The position numbers were made by a program, and so were the translations under genes. A DNA stretch of 64,000 nucleotides, from the NCBI GenBank assembly GCA_024710905.1, contig JANJTV010000085.1, positions 1 to 64,000 of the forward strand, given 5' to 3'. The notes beneath the pieces were generated by a model. The model saw nothing but the letters and a program-made list of their open reading frames with translations, had not been told where the DNA came from and did no database searches. Positions 56,066 through 63,088 of this stretch are shown piece after piece (the first letter of the stretch is position 1; the number at the start of each line of letters is the position of its first letter). This stretch comes from Anaerolineales bacterium. Its GTDB lineage: Bacteria; Chloroflexota; Anaerolineae; Anaerolineales; Villigracilaceae.

Positions 56066-56902
56066 TTAAGTTTCAATTTTGAGCAGGCGGTCATGCCCGG
56101 CCAGGTCTTTCAGGATGTGAATGGATGCCCCGCCAAACTGGCCGCCAGCCAGTTTGTGAACGGCCTTCCCCAAGGTAGATTCAATCTCCACCAAGAGCAG
56201 CCCCCCCGTAGCTGCTCTCTGTTTCGAGGCCGCCAGCAGCCTGCGGATGACCTCAAGCCCACCTGGCCCGCCGTCCAGCGCCAGGGTGGGCTCCCGGCCG
56301 TAGACGTCCAATCCGTGCAAGATGTCGGTCGGGATGTAGGGTGGGTTGGATAGGATCAGGTCGTATTGCGATGCGCTTTGTGCTTCAGGGAACAGATCGG
56401 TTTGATGGAATAGGATACGCGTATCCAGGCCGTGTTTTTTGGCATTTTGGTGGGCGATGATTAGTGCATCTGGCGAAATGTCGGTTGCGTCGATTTGAGC
56501 GGCTGGCAGGTGTTTTGCCATGCTGATGGCAATTGCGCCCGAGCCAGTACCAATATCAATTAAACGGTAGGCAGGCTTAGGGTGTGCCCGCGCCCAGGCC
56601 AGGGCTTCTTCCACCAGCAGTTCGGTTTCTGGGCGGGGAATTAGCACGACGGGCGAAACATCAAATTCCATCCCGAAGAATTCCCAGCAGCCGAGGATGT
56701 ACGGCAGGGGCATGCCGCTGGCGAATTGTTCCATATAAAGTTGCAGGTGTTCCTGCTGGTTTGCATTGAGCGTGTGTTCCGGGTGGGTGGCCAGCCAGGT
56801 TTTGTTAACGCCCAGGACATGCGCCAAGAGCACCTGGGCCTCGAGCGGTGGCAGGCGCTTTTTGAGTTGTTGCAGGGTCTGGCTAATCGTTGGCGCTTCC
56901 AA
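56066..56902 (-). CDS. prmC: Peptide chain release factor N5-glutamine methyltransferase
   Basis: VVLIPRPETELLVEEAL, DIGTGSGAIAISMAK, LILSNPPYIPTDIL. Confidence 0.95.
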   Translation of the reverse strand: MEAPTISQTLQQLKKRLPPLEAQVLLAHVLGVNKTWLATHPEHTLNANQQEHLQLYMEQFASGMPLPYILGCWEFFGMEFDVSPVVLIPRPETELLVEEALAWARAHPKPAYRLIDIGTGSGAIAISMAKHLPAAQIDATDISPDALIIAHQNAKKHGLDTRILFHQTDLFPEAQSASQYDLILSNPPYIPTDILHGLDVYGREPTLALDGGPGGLEVIRRLLAASKQRAATGGLLLVEIESTLGKAVHKLAGGQFGGASIHILKDLAGHDRLLKIET

Positions 56903-57737
56903 ATAGCAGGCTGTCGAAAATGGTGTTCTGGAAGATGATGAAGATCACCACTACCGGGATGGACATGATCAATGAGAGCGCGCCAATGTGGCTCCAGGGC
57001 AGGGCGCTGCCGAACTGGGCATTAATCATGGTGTAGATGGTCATGGAGAGAGTGACTGTGTCCGGGCGTTCCACGAATAGCCAGCCCAGGGCAAACTCGG
57101 AATAACCCATCAGGAAAGCGATCAGCGCCGAGACGGCCAGGCTGGGCAGGGCCAGTGGCAGGCTGATGCGCCAGAAAGTGGTGAAATCACCTGCGCCGTC
57201 CAGGTAGGCGGCTTCTTCAAGTTCTTTCGGCACCGCCTGGAAGGCGGCGCGCATGTTCCAGATGCAGAACGGCATGGCAAAGGCGGCATAAACAATGACC
57301 AGTGCCATGAGCGTGGTGCGAATCTTGAGAATGCTCAAGATGATGTAGAGCGGGGTCATGAAGGCCACCGGTGGCAGCAGGGCAGTCAACAAAAGCACAA
57401 ACAGCCCGGCCTGCCGACCGGGGAAGCGGAATCGGGCAAAGGCATAGGCCAGGCTCAGGCCAAGTGCGAGGGCCAGCCCGGCTGCACCGAGTGAGGCTGT
57501 CAGGCTGTTGCCGAGCAGGGTGGTGAAGGCCACGTTCTGGTAGGGTTTATCAAGTACTTTTTCGAAGGCGTTCAGCGAGAACTCTTTCGGGAAGAAATGG
57601 AATTCAGTCGGGCGGCTGGTGAGTGCACCGTCGAAAGCCAGACGGGCTGTGCCCCAGATGGGTACCAGCACGTAGAGTGCGATTACCAGCAAGACAAACT
57701 GGCTCAATACCTGGCGCAGGAAAGACATTTTACGCAT
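56883..57737 (-). CDS. Carbohydrate ABC transporter permease, MalG-like
   Basis: 284 aa, 6 TM; EAA loop ELEEAAYLDGAGDFTTFWRISLPLALP. Confidence 0.93.
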   Translation of the reverse strand: MRKMSFLRQVLSQFVLLVIALYVLVPIWGTARLAFDGALTSRPTEFHFFPKEFSLNAFEKVLDKPYQNVAFTTLLGNSLTASLGAAGLALALGLSLAYAFARFRFPGRQAGLFVLLLTALLPPVAFMTPLYIILSILKIRTTLMALVIVYAAFAMPFCIWNMRAAFQAVPKELEEAAYLDGAGDFTTFWRISLPLALPSLAVSALIAFLMGYSEFALGWLFVERPDTVTLSMTIYTMINAQFGSALPWSHIGALSLIMSIPVVVIFIIFQNTIFDSLLFGSAND

Positions 57738-59880
57738 AATCCACTCCCTCCCCGGCGCGGCTCAAGCGATTGAACAGGAAGACAAACCCGGCCAGGATAA
57801 TAACAGCGATCAGGTTGATGACAGCCGACAGGGCAAACATGCCGTTAGGCCTGAAGAACCATCCGCTGGGGTTAAAGACATTATAGGAAACGGTTGCCAG
57901 GGTGCTTTCACCGAACAGGAAAACCTGGAAAAGGTAGAACTGGTTGAAGGCGAAAATGCCGCGGATGATGATGGCGGGCAGCAACAGGGGGCGCAGCAAG
58001 GGCCAGACCACGCCTTTCAGGGTTTGCCAGCCATTGGCTCCGTCAATCTTGGCGGCGTCCAGCACGTCCGGGGGAATCATTTTCAAGCCTGCGCCAGCGG
58101 CCAGCATCATGAACGGGAAGCCATACCACACGGCGGCGATCAGGAAAACCACAAGGCGCATTTCGGCAGTATTTTGCCAGCCATTGAAGAAGCCAAACGG
58201 GATGTCCGGGCCAAAATCACGAATGGCCAGCGCCAGCCAGCCGACATCCCAGACAAAGATGTTCAGCCAAAGATAGGCGCCAATCATCTCAGGGATGGCC
58301 CAGGGCAGGATGAAAAGCGCCTGCCAGAATTTGCCCAGGCGCAGCCCGCGCTGCCACAAGATCAATGCGACGGCAACGCCAAATAGGGTTTGCAGGGAAA
58401 CCGAAACAACCGTCCACATCAGATTAAAGAACAGGATGCCGCTCCCGGCGATGTAGTCGAACACCGGCGCAAACGAGCCGATGCCAACATAGCGCACTGT
58501 ATTGGAGCGTTCCTCGATGCCGAACCTGGCAGGTTGAATCTGCCCGGTCAGCCCGCCCCAGACTTCGCGCCAGATGCCGCCTTCAAACCCGTCGCGGATG
58601 GAAGAGACGCTGAAATCGGTCATGGAGACGCCGAGCTGGAAAACCAGCGGGAAGAGGGTCAGCAAGGCGAAGGCTACCAGGCCGGGAATCAGCCAGTTGC
58701 GGGCGCGGGAGAGTTCCCGCTGAGAGTAGGTTGAGACGGCCCATTGTTCCTTCCATTGCTGGCGGTTTTTCCAGGCGCTGCGGATTGGATCCACAAACAG
58801 GGCCATTGCTCCTTCGGCGGCAGCCAGGCTGAGCGGGGCAGTCAGCACCAGGATGTATTGCGGCCATTTGGTGGGCCAGGCCAGCAGGAAGAGCAGGGCT
58901 GTGACCAGCCAGATGCCATACATGCGTTCCTTCTTCCACAGCCGGGTAATACCCAGAACTGCCAGTATGGTGATGTACAGGTCTGGCGCAAAGGTAAAGG
59001 TCATCGGGTGCCAGGACTGCGGGGAGGTGCTGAGCCAGATGAATGGTTGCCAGGCAGGGAAGCCGGCGCTTTCCACCTCGCTTGCGCCGGTGGAATAGGC
59101 GGCATGGTAGAAGATCGATTCTTGCAGGCGGGCCAGAGGATCTGTCCACAGGTAGGGGTTGGCGGCAAAGAAGATGCCAACCGCCAGCACGCCCCAGCCC
59201 AGGGCCAACAAAGCGGAATTTCGCAGGCGGTTTTGCTCGCGTGCGTCCAGGAACCAATCAATCAGGATGGCGATGCCGACCAGGCAGTAGATGTATTTGG
59301 AGGCTGCAGTCAGGCCGAGCATGGCGGCAGAAAGCGCCAGCCAGGCGGTTTTATTTGTCTTTTTGTAACGCAAATACGCCAGCACAGTCAGCAGGCTGGT
59401 CAGGGAAGGCAGAGCTTCCAACATTACCTGCGCGCCGTATTTAATCGTAAATGTGTGGTTGGCAAGGAAAAGCCCGGCCAACGGATTGATGAAGGCCAAT
59501 AGTAAAACAGTCAGGGTGCTTTCGATGGCTCCGAGCGTGCGGGCAGGGGCAATCAACTCCCGCGATAGGAACCTGTCTGGTTCGGCGGTTGTGGCGCGAT
59601 CTGGCGTTAACGGTTTTTCGGGTGCCGTCAGCAGGCTGGCGCCAAACAAAATCTTTGCCAGCGGCGGGTGTTCAGGCCGGTAATTGAACTCACTTAGCCC
59701 GGCCAGGTCGCCAGAGCGGAACACAGCGGCATATTCCTGCGCGGCGCGGATGTAATCATCCTCGTCATAATCCACAGACAGGGTTTGCACGGCATGCATA
59801 CGCCAGTTCCAGGCCAGCCAGGCCACTGCCAGCGCTGCCAGGAATCGCAGCAGGATGACTACCGGGCGGGGGATGTTCAT
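57730..59880 (-). CDS. Fusion protein: N-terminal GT39/PMT-like glycosyltransferase domain + C-terminal MalF-like ABC transporter permease
   Basis: 716-aa single ORF. N-half: DYDEDDYIRAAQEYA, NYRPEHPPLAKILFG, WPTKWPQYILVLTAPLSLAA. C-half: permease EAA loop DVLDAAKIDGANGWQTLKGVVWPLLRP. Confidence 0.88.
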   Translation of the reverse strand: MNIPRPVVILLRFLAALAVAWLAWNWRMHAVQTLSVDYDEDDYIRAAQEYAAVFRSGDLAGLSEFNYRPEHPPLAKILFGASLLTAPEKPLTPDRATTAEPDRFLSRELIAPARTLGAIESTLTVLLLAFINPLAGLFLANHTFTIKYGAQVMLEALPSLTSLLTVLAYLRYKKTNKTAWLALSAAMLGLTAASKYIYCLVGIAILIDWFLDAREQNRLRNSALLALGWGVLAVGIFFAANPYLWTDPLARLQESIFYHAAYSTGASEVESAGFPAWQPFIWLSTSPQSWHPMTFTFAPDLYITILAVLGITRLWKKERMYGIWLVTALLFLLAWPTKWPQYILVLTAPLSLAAAEGAMALFVDPIRSAWKNRQQWKEQWAVSTYSQRELSRARNWLIPGLVAFALLTLFPLVFQLGVSMTDFSVSSIRDGFEGGIWREVWGGLTGQIQPARFGIEERSNTVRYVGIGSFAPVFDYIAGSGILFFNLMWTVVSVSLQTLFGVAVALILWQRGLRLGKFWQALFILPWAIPEMIGAYLWLNIFVWDVGWLALAIRDFGPDIPFGFFNGWQNTAEMRLVVFLIAAVWYGFPFMMLAAGAGLKMIPPDVLDAAKIDGANGWQTLKGVVWPLLRPLLLPAIIIRGIFAFNQFYLFQVFLFGESTLATVSYNVFNPSGWFFRPNGMFALSAVINLIAVIILAGFVFLFNRLSRAGEGVDYA
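58823..58895. repeat. 73-bp direct repeat, copy 1
   Basis: gccaggctgagcggggcagtcagcaccaggatgtattgcggccatttggtgggccaggccagcaggaagagca, identical to 59953-60025. Confidence 0.97.
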
Positions 59881-61016
59881 TATTTTCTCTCAATCAGGGC
59901 ACGTAGGTCGGCCCAGGTTTCTCTTAAGACGATCAAGATGGTTTCACCCGCGGCCAGGCTGAGCGGGGCAGTCAGCACCAGGATGTATTGCGGCCATTTG
60001 GTGGGCCAGGCCAGCAGGAAGAGCATGCCGACCACCAGCCAGAGCGCGTATACGCGCTGGTTTCGCCACAGGCGCACCAGGCCTAGCACAGCCAGGGTAA
60101 TCATCAACATGTCCACTGAAAAAGCAAAGACATTTTCGGGGTGCCAGTCTTTTGCCGAGGTGACAATCCAGATGAACGGCTGGTAGGTTGGGAAGGCGGT
60201 TGCCAGCACCTCCGGTGCGGAGGTGGAGTAATTTTGGTGGAAGAAGAGCGACTCGCCCATCCGCCCGATGGGGTCAGGCCACAGGTAGGTATTTACGAGG
60301 AAAAACGCCAGAAGCGAGGCCGCGCCCCAGGTTCCGGCGGCGCGCACCAGGCCCAGCCAGCCTTCTTTTGTCCTGGGGGTGGAGAATATCCAATCGACCA
60401 GGATGGCGAACCCGACCACGGCATACAGGTATTTGCTGGCGGCGGTCAGGCCGAGGAAGATGGCTGATGCGGCCAGCCAGGCATTGAAGTGGGCGGGCTC
60501 CCCCGGGGCGGAATTCCGTTTCGCCAGGCTGTAGCACACGACGGCCGCCAGGCTGGTGAACGAGGCCACACCTTCCAGGTAGATGACGCTGGTGTATTTA
60601 ATCGTCATGGTATGGGAGGCCAGAAAGAACCCGCCCAGCGGATTCACCATTGCCAACAGGCCTGCTGTTAATGCGCCGAAGACTGCCGAAAGGGTGCGCG
60701 CATTCATGCCTGCCGGGGCCAACACCAGTTGGAAGGGATCAATGGCCGGGGTGGGTGAAGACAGGATGACCAACCCGAATAACACCTTGTTCAAGGGGGG
60801 GTGCTCTGGGTTGGGATTGGTTTGCAGGAACCCGCCCCAGTTGCCGGTACTGAACAATTCTTTGAATTGTAGGGCTGCTGAGAGATAGACGGCTTCGTCG
60901 TTATCGACCGGCAGGTTGTTGACGGCCTGCATGCGCAGGTTAAATGCCATTCCTGTGACAATCAGGAAAGCCAGTATTGGGACCAGGAATTTGAAGAAAG
61001 GGTTATTTTTCATCAC
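59880..61016 (-). CDS. GT39/PMT-like membrane glycosyltransferase, paralogue of the N-half of the fusion
   Basis: 378 aa; LPVDNDEAVYLSAALQF, NPNPEHPPLNKVLFGLVIL, WPTKWPQYILVLTAPLSLAAGE; TAATG 1-nt overlap with the fusion ORF. Confidence 0.85.
   Translation of the reverse strand: MMKNNPFFKFLVPILAFLIVTGMAFNLRMQAVNNLPVDNDEAVYLSAALQFKELFSTGNWGGFLQTNPNPEHPPLNKVLFGLVILSSPTPAIDPFQLVLAPAGMNARTLSAVFGALTAGLLAMVNPLGGFFLASHTMTIKYTSVIYLEGVASFTSLAAVVCYSLAKRNSAPGEPAHFNAWLAASAIFLGLTAASKYLYAVVGFAILVDWIFSTPRTKEGWLGLVRAAGTWGAASLLAFFLVNTYLWPDPIGRMGESLFFHQNYSTSAPEVLATAFPTYQPFIWIVTSAKDWHPENVFAFSVDMLMITLAVLGLVRLWRNQRVYALWLVVGMLFLLAWPTKWPQYILVLTAPLSLAAGETILIVLRETWADLRALIERK
59953..60025. repeat. 73-bp direct repeat, copy 2
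   Basis: Identical to 58823-58895. Confidence 0.97.
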
Positions 61017-61950
61017 GTTTCCTCAGGGCAAGTAGGGATAGGTATTCAAAAACCAGGTTGGCGGCCAGCACTGAAGTGATGTCGCCGTGGTCGTACGGGG
61101 GCGAAACTTCGACCACATCCGCGCCGATGATGTCCAATCCATGCAGGCCGCGCACCAGTTGCAGCAGCTGGTAACTGCTCAGGCCGCCCACTTCCGGGGT
61201 GCCGGTACCAGGCGCATAGGCCGGATCTGCCGAGTCAATATCCAGCGAAATATACAACGGACCTTGTATGCGCTGTTGAATTTCCTCCACAACGGCAAGG
61301 ATGCCTTTTTCCATCACTTCATGGATGGTAATCATCCGCGCGCCAAGTGCCAGGGCTTCGGCATAATCATTCTCGCCGCTGACCGGGCCGCGAATGCCAA
61401 CCTGGATGTACCCATCCTTGCGAATCAGGCCTTCCTGCAGGGCATACCGGAAGGGTGTCCCGTGACTGTAGGGAACGGACTCAAATTCGGCTTCCCAGGT
61501 ATCGATGTGGGCGTCGATGTGGACGACGTTGACCGGGCCGTAGTGTTTGGCGTGGGCGCGCAGCAGGGGCAGGGCCGTACTATGATCGCCGCCCAGGCTG
61601 ATTAATGTACAACCAGATTGAATGACCTTGCTGGCGGTTTCTGTGATGGCCTGCATGGTATGTTCAATGGAAGTCGGGATAATACTGACATCGCCATAAT
61701 CGACGATGTTCAGGTGATCAGTCGGGCGGATGTTCAGGGTGCTGTTGTAGCCCCAGATTATCAGTGACATTTCACGGATTTTGCGCGGGCCAAAGCGCGT
61801 GCCGCTGCGGTGGGAGGTGGCGCTGTCGTAAGGGATGCCCATTACGGCCACATCCACGCCTTGTAGATCGCGGGTGGCGGGCTGGCGCATGAAACTGGGG
61901 ATGCCCATAAACGGTTGCAGGCCGTCCCCGAAGGCGGGATTTTCGTTCAT
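61003..61950 (-). CDS. Agmatinase / ureohydrolase family
   Basis: 315 aa; SLGGDHSTALPLL, HIDAHIDTW, SLDIDSADPAYAPGTGTPEVGG metal-binding motifs. Confidence 0.93.
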   Translation of the reverse strand: MNENPAFGDGLQPFMGIPSFMRQPATRDLQGVDVAVMGIPYDSATSHRSGTRFGPRKIREMSLIIWGYNSTLNIRPTDHLNIVDYGDVSIIPTSIEHTMQAITETASKVIQSGCTLISLGGDHSTALPLLRAHAKHYGPVNVVHIDAHIDTWEAEFESVPYSHGTPFRYALQEGLIRKDGYIQVGIRGPVSGENDYAEALALGARMITIHEVMEKGILAVVEEIQQRIQGPLYISLDIDSADPAYAPGTGTPEVGGLSSYQLLQLVRGLHGLDIIGADVVEVSPPYDHGDITSVLAANLVFEYLSLLALRKRDEK

Positions 61951-62014: not shown

Positions 62015-63088
62015 TTACTCGTCATCATCCAGACCGGCAGAAAGGCGGTCGGCCTCATCGCGGGTCGAGAGTTCTTCAATGAAGATATCAATATCGCCAT
62101 TCATCACCACCGGCAGGTTGTGGGATGAAATACCAATGCGATGGTCGGTGACGCGGCTTTGCGGGTAATTGTAGGTGCGGATTTTTTCCGAACGTTCGCC
62201 TGTGCCGACTTGCGAACGACGCTCGGCTTCCAACTCGTTGCGGCGCTTTAGTTCTTCCATTTCGAAGAGCCGGGCACGCAGGATGCTCATGGCACGCATT
62301 TTGTTCTGCAACTGTGAGCGTTCGTCCTGGCAGGTGACGACCATGCCGGTCGGCTTGTGATGCAGGCGCACCGCGGTGGAGTTCTTCTGCACGTTCTGGC
62401 CGCCCGCGCCTGCCGAACGATAGACTTCTACCTCAATATCTGAATCGGGGATGTGGATTTCAACATCATCTACTTCAGCCAGTACAGCCACGGTGGCCGT
62501 GGATGTATGGATGCGCCCCTGTGATTCGGTGGCCGGGACGCGCTGGACGCGATGTACACCCGACTCATACTTGAGTTTGGAGTATGCGCCGTGTCCTTTG
62601 ATTTCAAAGGTGATTTCCTTGTAGCCGCCGATGCCAATCTCATTGGCAGACATGATCTCTGATTTCCAACGTTGGCGCTCGGCGTAGAGCGTATACATGC
62701 GGAAGAGGTCGGCTGCAAACAGGGCCGCCTCGTCGCCACCCGTCCCGGCGCGGATTTCGACGATTACGTTCTTGTCGTCACGCGGGTCTTTGGGTACGAG
62801 CATACCCTTGAGTTGATCTTCCAGGGCGGGGATTTTCCCTTCCAGTTCGGCAATTTCCAACTCGGCCAGCCCGCGCATTTCTTCATCTGTTTCGGTTTCC
62901 AGCATGGAGCGGGCTTCTTCCAACCGTTTCATGGCCTGGCGGTATTCGCGGGCTTTTTCCACCAGTTGTTCCAGGTCGCTGCGTTCCTTGTTGAGTTCGG
63001 CAGCGCGCTGGTAGTCGTTGCCCACTTCCATGAGCTGCTGGTTGATTTCATCAAAACGTTCTTCAATTCCTGCTAATTTGTCGAGCAT
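62015..63088 (-). CDS. prfA: Peptide chain release factor 1
   Basis: 357 aa; [57 protein letters not shown] (GGQ). Confidence 0.96.

Follow-up and report, generated by a model that had tools for sequence, protein, structure and literature searches.

Why should a glycosyltransferase and one half of a sugar importer be made as a single polypeptide? This question is raised by an ORF in a 64,000-nucleotide stretch of an Anaerolineales genome (contig JANJTV010000085.1), which is called the window here. Anaerolineae are common in anaerobic habitats and have been poorly cultured. The initial annotation had read the ORF as an uninterrupted fusion of a GT39/PMT-like enzyme with a MalF-type ABC permease, and its continuity was confirmed, since the frame runs from an ATG through 716 amino acids with zero internal stops (Table 1). 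Modelling of the whole protein with AlphaFold2 and 60 aligned relatives gave a pLDDT of 89.9 and a pTM of 0.86. The connecting segment stands out by low conservation (0.27 for residues 361-380) and a pLDDT of only 59-65 (residues 371-390). According to our reading of the helix list, about ten transmembrane helices belong to the N-terminal and six to the C-terminal half. The N-terminus of MalF is cytoplasmic, and the even helix number of the preceding domain, on the same reading, fits this topology.

Table 1. Features of the fusion gene, its surroundings and related loci
Feature	Coordinates or location	Strand	Remarks
GT-C / MalF fusion protein	57730..59880	-	716 aa; based on ORF, relatives and AlphaFold2
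N-terminal GT-C glycosyltransferase domain	58771..59880	-	residues 1-370, about 10 TM helices
Catalytic-type motif D37-x-D39-E40	first outer loop of GT half		within DYDEDDY (residues 37-43)
Motif E70-H71-P72-P73-x-x-K76	GT half		EHPPL = residues 70-74
Junction	58723..58800	-	about residues 361-386, poorly conserved, lower model confidence
C-terminal MalF/SugA-type ABC importer permease domain	57730..58722	-	residues 387-716, about 6 TM helices
EAA loop	57991..58065	-	about residues 606-630, VLDAAKIDGANGWQTLKGVVWPLLR, ATPase contact site
MalG-type partner permease	56883..57737	-	284 aa, 8-base overlap with fusion
Stand-alone GT-C paralogue	59880..61016	-	378 aa
Agmatinase-like gene	61003..61950	-	next upstream, bystander, seen in some relatives
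prfA release factor gene	62015..63088	-	conserved upstream neighbour in housekeeping context
prmC/hemK methyltransferase gene	56066..56902	-	conserved downstream neighbour
GT-C/Reg_prop proteins	L159:8402-10513, L160:8253-10370, L162:9295-11466, L166:2887-4980		

The fusion is old and conserved. A search with one genome per GTDB species found 66 loci, all from records with Chloroflexota group titles, and most of them match over near-full length with 43-61% identity. About 60 near-complete fused relatives from separate Chloroflexota assemblies carry the same joint. Hence, an assembly chimera or sequencing artefact, which had been raised together with the first reading, is excluded, and homologues are fused rather than always encoded as two ORFs. 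A second genome set contained additional intact copies. Among 399 genomes of the phylum, near-full-length fused matches occurred in eight besides that of the window, with long ones in G410 and G337, and some copies fall in the distant families f44 and f93. All complete copies of the fused-type permease that we found carry the GT domain, and a complete permease of this type without it was not found among the relatives, because each apparent case could be put down to a fragment at a contig end or to a damaged frame. L122, which derives from the G043 hit L076, runs off its contig, L064 has its start at contig position 16, L066 and L082 contain no more than short pieces of the C-terminus, the L063 frame opens within the permease and is preceded by unrelated ORFs, and L041 and L062 look frameshifted. 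GT-only copies do exist. In L075 (genome G016) the permease is broken off shortly past the junction, and L077 (G032) shows the order PrfA-GT-PrmC; both genomes have retained the MalE orthologue. Here, the GT stays at the PrfA locus when the permease half is broken off (L075) or absent (L077). It appears to be the part of the fusion under longer-lasting selection.

Profile, fold and conservation support the assignment of the N-terminal half as a PMT/ArnT-like GT-C glycosyltransferase, as far as sequence and structure models can tell. The Pfam family PMT_2 matches residues 134-233 (E 1e-4) close to its curated cut-off of 26.1 bits, with 25.3 bits for the domain alone, 22.9 for the whole protein and 26.5 in a six-frame genome scan, i.e. 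the match is borderline. Modelled alone, the domain reached a pLDDT of 95.5 and a pTM of 0.93, and in Foldseek searches it was closest to Pmt4 (E 1e-5, TMq 0.63) and ArnT (5ezm, TMq 0.62), followed by OST and PglB. Furthermore, a profile built from 30 GT domains recovered yeast Pmt4 with E 5e-5, in an alignment that begins at the common HPPxxK motif. The acidic DYDEDDY loop, the HPPL motif and the helix shared with the neighbouring GT gene that had been pointed out initially are all present, the last as WPTKWPQYILVLTAPLSLAA, which is identical in both proteins. Of the 66 fusions, 64 are readable at D37-x-D39-E40-D41-D42-Y43, and all 64 have the same residues there except at x; H71, P72 and K76 occur in every one of the 66 copies, and E70, R114, K195, D300 and others do not vary wherever they can be read. 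Nearly all non-fused GT relatives retain D-x-D-E, while the D41-D42 pair is mostly absent from the stand-alone and propeller-linked ones.

The C-terminal half was likewise recognized correctly as a MalF-type permease with an EAA loop. BPD_transp_1 matches residues 499-701 (E 9e-13, 48.7 bits versus a cut-off of 26.4), MalF is the best NCBIfam match (residues 483-657, E 4e-21), the nearest folds are MalF and SugA with a TM score to the target of up to 0.86 (Foldseek), and the EAA-loop residues A609, D613 and G614 are invariant in the 66 fusions. However, with 75 bits the fused permease stays far from the MalF equivalog cut-off of 392. In a phylogenetic tree, the fused permease halves form one clade separate from canonical MalF (support 100/99), in which long branches make the exact placement of L102 uncertain. 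Differences are also seen in the putative substrate pocket. We take the maltose contacts of E. coli MalF to include S329, N376 and S433; no source for these contacts was found in the full-text literature. By sequence alignment, S329 corresponds to E531, S433 to R640 and N376 to A583, and at the assumed contact positions as a whole the fused permease has W527, E531, A583 (mostly), R640 and Q647. The maltose-contact residues of canonical MalF, judged by this alignment and list, are absent, and the canonical MalF of the same bacteria have other residues there than the fused protein. W527, E531, R640 and Q647 are invariant or nearly so in fusions, and since the pocket has invariant residues of its own, the substrate site is probably strongly constrained and different from a plain-maltose site. 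This pattern suggests a sugar importer with a specificity of its own. A repurposed permease, as considered in the initial annotation, is thereby partly favoured, although the EAA loop for the ATPase is retained.

The gene neighbourhood connects the fusion with alpha-glucan use. At 35 of the 57 loci with informative flanks, it is hosted by a maltose operon (MalE-MalF-MalG-GH13), typically in the order (ROK-type regulator or MalK)-MalE-MalF-MalG-GH13-FUSION-MalG2-GH13. At the other 22, as in the window, it lies between prfA and prmC, genes which we named by sequence recognition, and in this context neither a binding protein nor an ATPase adjoins it. The MalG-like partner reported immediately downstream is a regular companion, with the identical 8-base overlap in 54 of 62 relatives. 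Some MalE-like ORFs beside the fusion are unusually long (685 aa in L051, 771 aa in L052) and possibly carry an extra domain.

The genome of the window does contain the components that its locus lacks. A ROK-MalE-MalF-MalG-GH13-GH13 operon without the fusion lies on another contig, with MalE at C49, and the only OB_MalK match of the assembly (G000:C140; L091:3605-4717) is found on a third contig beside a mutS-like gene and away from any permease. One MalK match per genome was obtained at the threshold used, and the window genome's MalK presumably serves several importers. Candidate donor synthases are encoded as well, one DPM-synthase-like (E 9e-29 to 5mlz) and one GtrB-like (E 8e-94 to 5ekp). 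Among 61 relatives, the MalE orthologue is present in 7/8 genomes with the fusion and in 5/53 others (Fisher 1e-5, or 1e-7 with partial copies included, kinship being ignored in both values), and further genomes were also examined for the joint occurrence of the two. Genomes with the fusion thus almost always possess MalE; in the one exception, G035, the fusion occurs with no MalE orthologue. The binding protein itself was considered as acceptor, but its linkers at fusion loci contain 0 to 8 Ser/Thr, one Thr in the window genome and none in L047. They are not consistently Ser/Thr-rich; hence, O-glycosylation of such linkers cannot be the universal role.

The relatives of the GT domain alone add to the operon evidence. 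In the GT tree, one clade consists mainly of fused copies, among which GT-only copies are nested. The second GT of the window belongs to a nested GT-only group (100/100), and the smallest mixed set that contains it has a support of 95/81. Although the tree does not itself give the direction of change, this position inside the fused clade is most simply explained by a secondary stand-alone copy, and the neighbouring gene was rejected as ancestor of the fused GT for the same reason. In this copy, the D41-D42 acids are lost (DNDEAVY). More distant relatives, mostly from other Chloroflexota families, have a C-terminal Reg_prop beta-propeller in place of the permease, which makes the propeller a second kind of partner for this GT domain. 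The genes in L159, L160, L162 and L166 adjoin MalE/MalF/MalG-like and/or GH13 genes, which ties the GT domain to alpha-glucan use whether it is fused to the permease or not. Another GT-C relative, L110:688-2676, is extended at its N-terminus and is not surrounded by maltose genes; for the tree, it was labelled with the propeller proteins by length only.

How might the two halves work together? The fusion and its linkage to the maltose system suggest an undescribed connection between sugar attachment and sugar uptake. The reading that we tentatively prefer, at slightly less than an even chance, builds on computed features, namely the fusion, its conservation, both motif sets, the operon linkage and the permease clade; from these features onwards we infer catalysis, donor, acceptor, transport, the sugar transported and the sharing of MalK and MalE. 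In Anaerolineales and some further Chloroflexota, the protein would be a bifunctional membrane component of the system by which alpha-glucans (maltodextrin/starch) are used. On the outside of the membrane, its GT half would transfer a sugar from polyprenyl phosphate to an extracytoplasmic acceptor of this system; our best guess for the acceptor is GH13 enzymes and binding proteins that are secreted or anchored by a lipid. The permease half and its co-translated MalG-type partner would pair one-to-one into a second type I importer, which may be powered by the shared MalK ATPase and probably carries a sugar other than plain maltose, and the joining of both halves would hold the enzyme at the site of import. 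It is weakened by four observations: the GT domain has none of the extra soluble domains by which eukaryotic PMTs and ArnT are extended, the MalE linkers are not regularly rich in Ser/Thr, the window-type loci have neither binding protein nor ATPase beside the fusion, and the MalE orthologue is missing in G035. The idea that transport is coupled to glycosylation had been put forward from the sequence of the locus; it is strengthened as an inference by the maltose/GH13 operons, whereas envelope glycosylation has no direct support. We regard as possible, but with clearly lower odds, that the protein is an old part of alpha-glucan use acting as a one-piece machine, in which importer and lipid-sugar-dependent GT share an extracellular substrate or gate each other.

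The target could also be a glycan or lipid rather than a protein. The GT would then glycosylate an oligosaccharide outside the cell or a glycolipid of its surface, and the oligosaccharide modified in this way would be taken up through the permease. Both halves would act on one substrate, which agrees with the operon common to GH13 enzymes and importer, with the conserved pocket unlike that of canonical MalF, and with the beta-propeller of the other GT branch, which may bind a ligand. Nevertheless, the nearest solved folds include the protein-modifying Pmt4 and OST (though also ArnT), and to spend a lipid-linked sugar on importing a sugar is costly, so that we consider this explanation unlikely. 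Similar doubt applies to the assumption that two independent activities came together by accident, were fixed because their translation is coupled, and do not influence each other mechanistically. The poorly conserved and less confidently modelled junction speaks for it, but every complete permease copy is fused across deep divergence, and D41-D42 is invariant in readable fusions and gives way to other residues in those stand-alone GTs that belong to the clade of the window's second GT. Still weaker is the proposal that the importer-like half, in concert with MalG and MalK, serves the attached GT by moving its polyprenyl-phosphate sugar or its product and does not import a nutrient. The missing binding protein in the window-type context would fit, and the invariant R640 and E531, aligned to the sugar site of MalF, could hold a charged group. 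However, type I importers transport inward what binding proteins deliver to them, the mal-context copies do adjoin MalE, and the GT persists without a permease in G016 and G032, where the permease is therefore not needed for its function. That the GT half is catalytically dead and only extends MalF as a structural element or a sugar sensor is very improbable, since it is indeed short for its family but keeps invariant motif residues in intact fusions and D-x-D-E in nearly all non-fused relatives, and it also occurs without the permease.

Each half of the protein is of a known kind; their union is new to us. To our knowledge, no single chain had been seen to combine a GT-C glycosyltransferase with an ABC importer. 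A search of the full-text literature, which covers few subscription papers, gave no report of a GT-C/GT39-permease fusion, and nothing on the mannosylation of binding proteins was found in full texts. Proteins whose genes are fused often work together. If the reading as a one-piece machine were true, glycosylation would be physically coupled to ATP-driven sugar transport in Chloroflexota, and the fusion makes it testable whether extracytoplasmic glycosylation is part of starch/maltodextrin feeding in Anaerolineae.

Compared with known systems, the GT half shares the GT-C fold and the acidic DxDE in the first outer loop with GT39/PMT enzymes (Pmt4, Pmt1-Pmt2) and ArnT, and the HPPxxK motif with Pmt4. 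It differs from PMTs and ArnT by its compact size of about 370 aa with no MIR or other soluble domain, by the borderline PMT_2 match and by being fused to an ABC permease. The permease half resembles the type I, CUT1-like MalF and SugA in fold, EAA loop, MalG-type partner and a MalK-type ATPase in the genome; in contrast to these, it is preceded by a ten-helix enzyme domain, occurs in the window-type context with no adjacent binding protein, and deviates from MalF by W527, E531, A583, R640 and Q647 at the presumed maltose contacts. A tested precedent for the preferred reading exists in Caldicellulosiruptor bescii, where deletion of the GT39 gene of the glucan degradation locus (Cbes_1864) abolished the glycosylation of secreted enzymes (PMC6151902). 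There, too, a GT39-type gene lies beside secreted glucan-degrading enzymes, but Cbes_1864 is a stand-alone protein of 556 aa from a cellulase locus and has no permease (PMC6151902). Another parallel is seen in the GT-C/Reg_prop proteins of Chloroflexota, in which a related GT domain from a maltose/GH13 operon is likewise joined to a C-terminal partner, that partner being a beta-propeller and not a permease.
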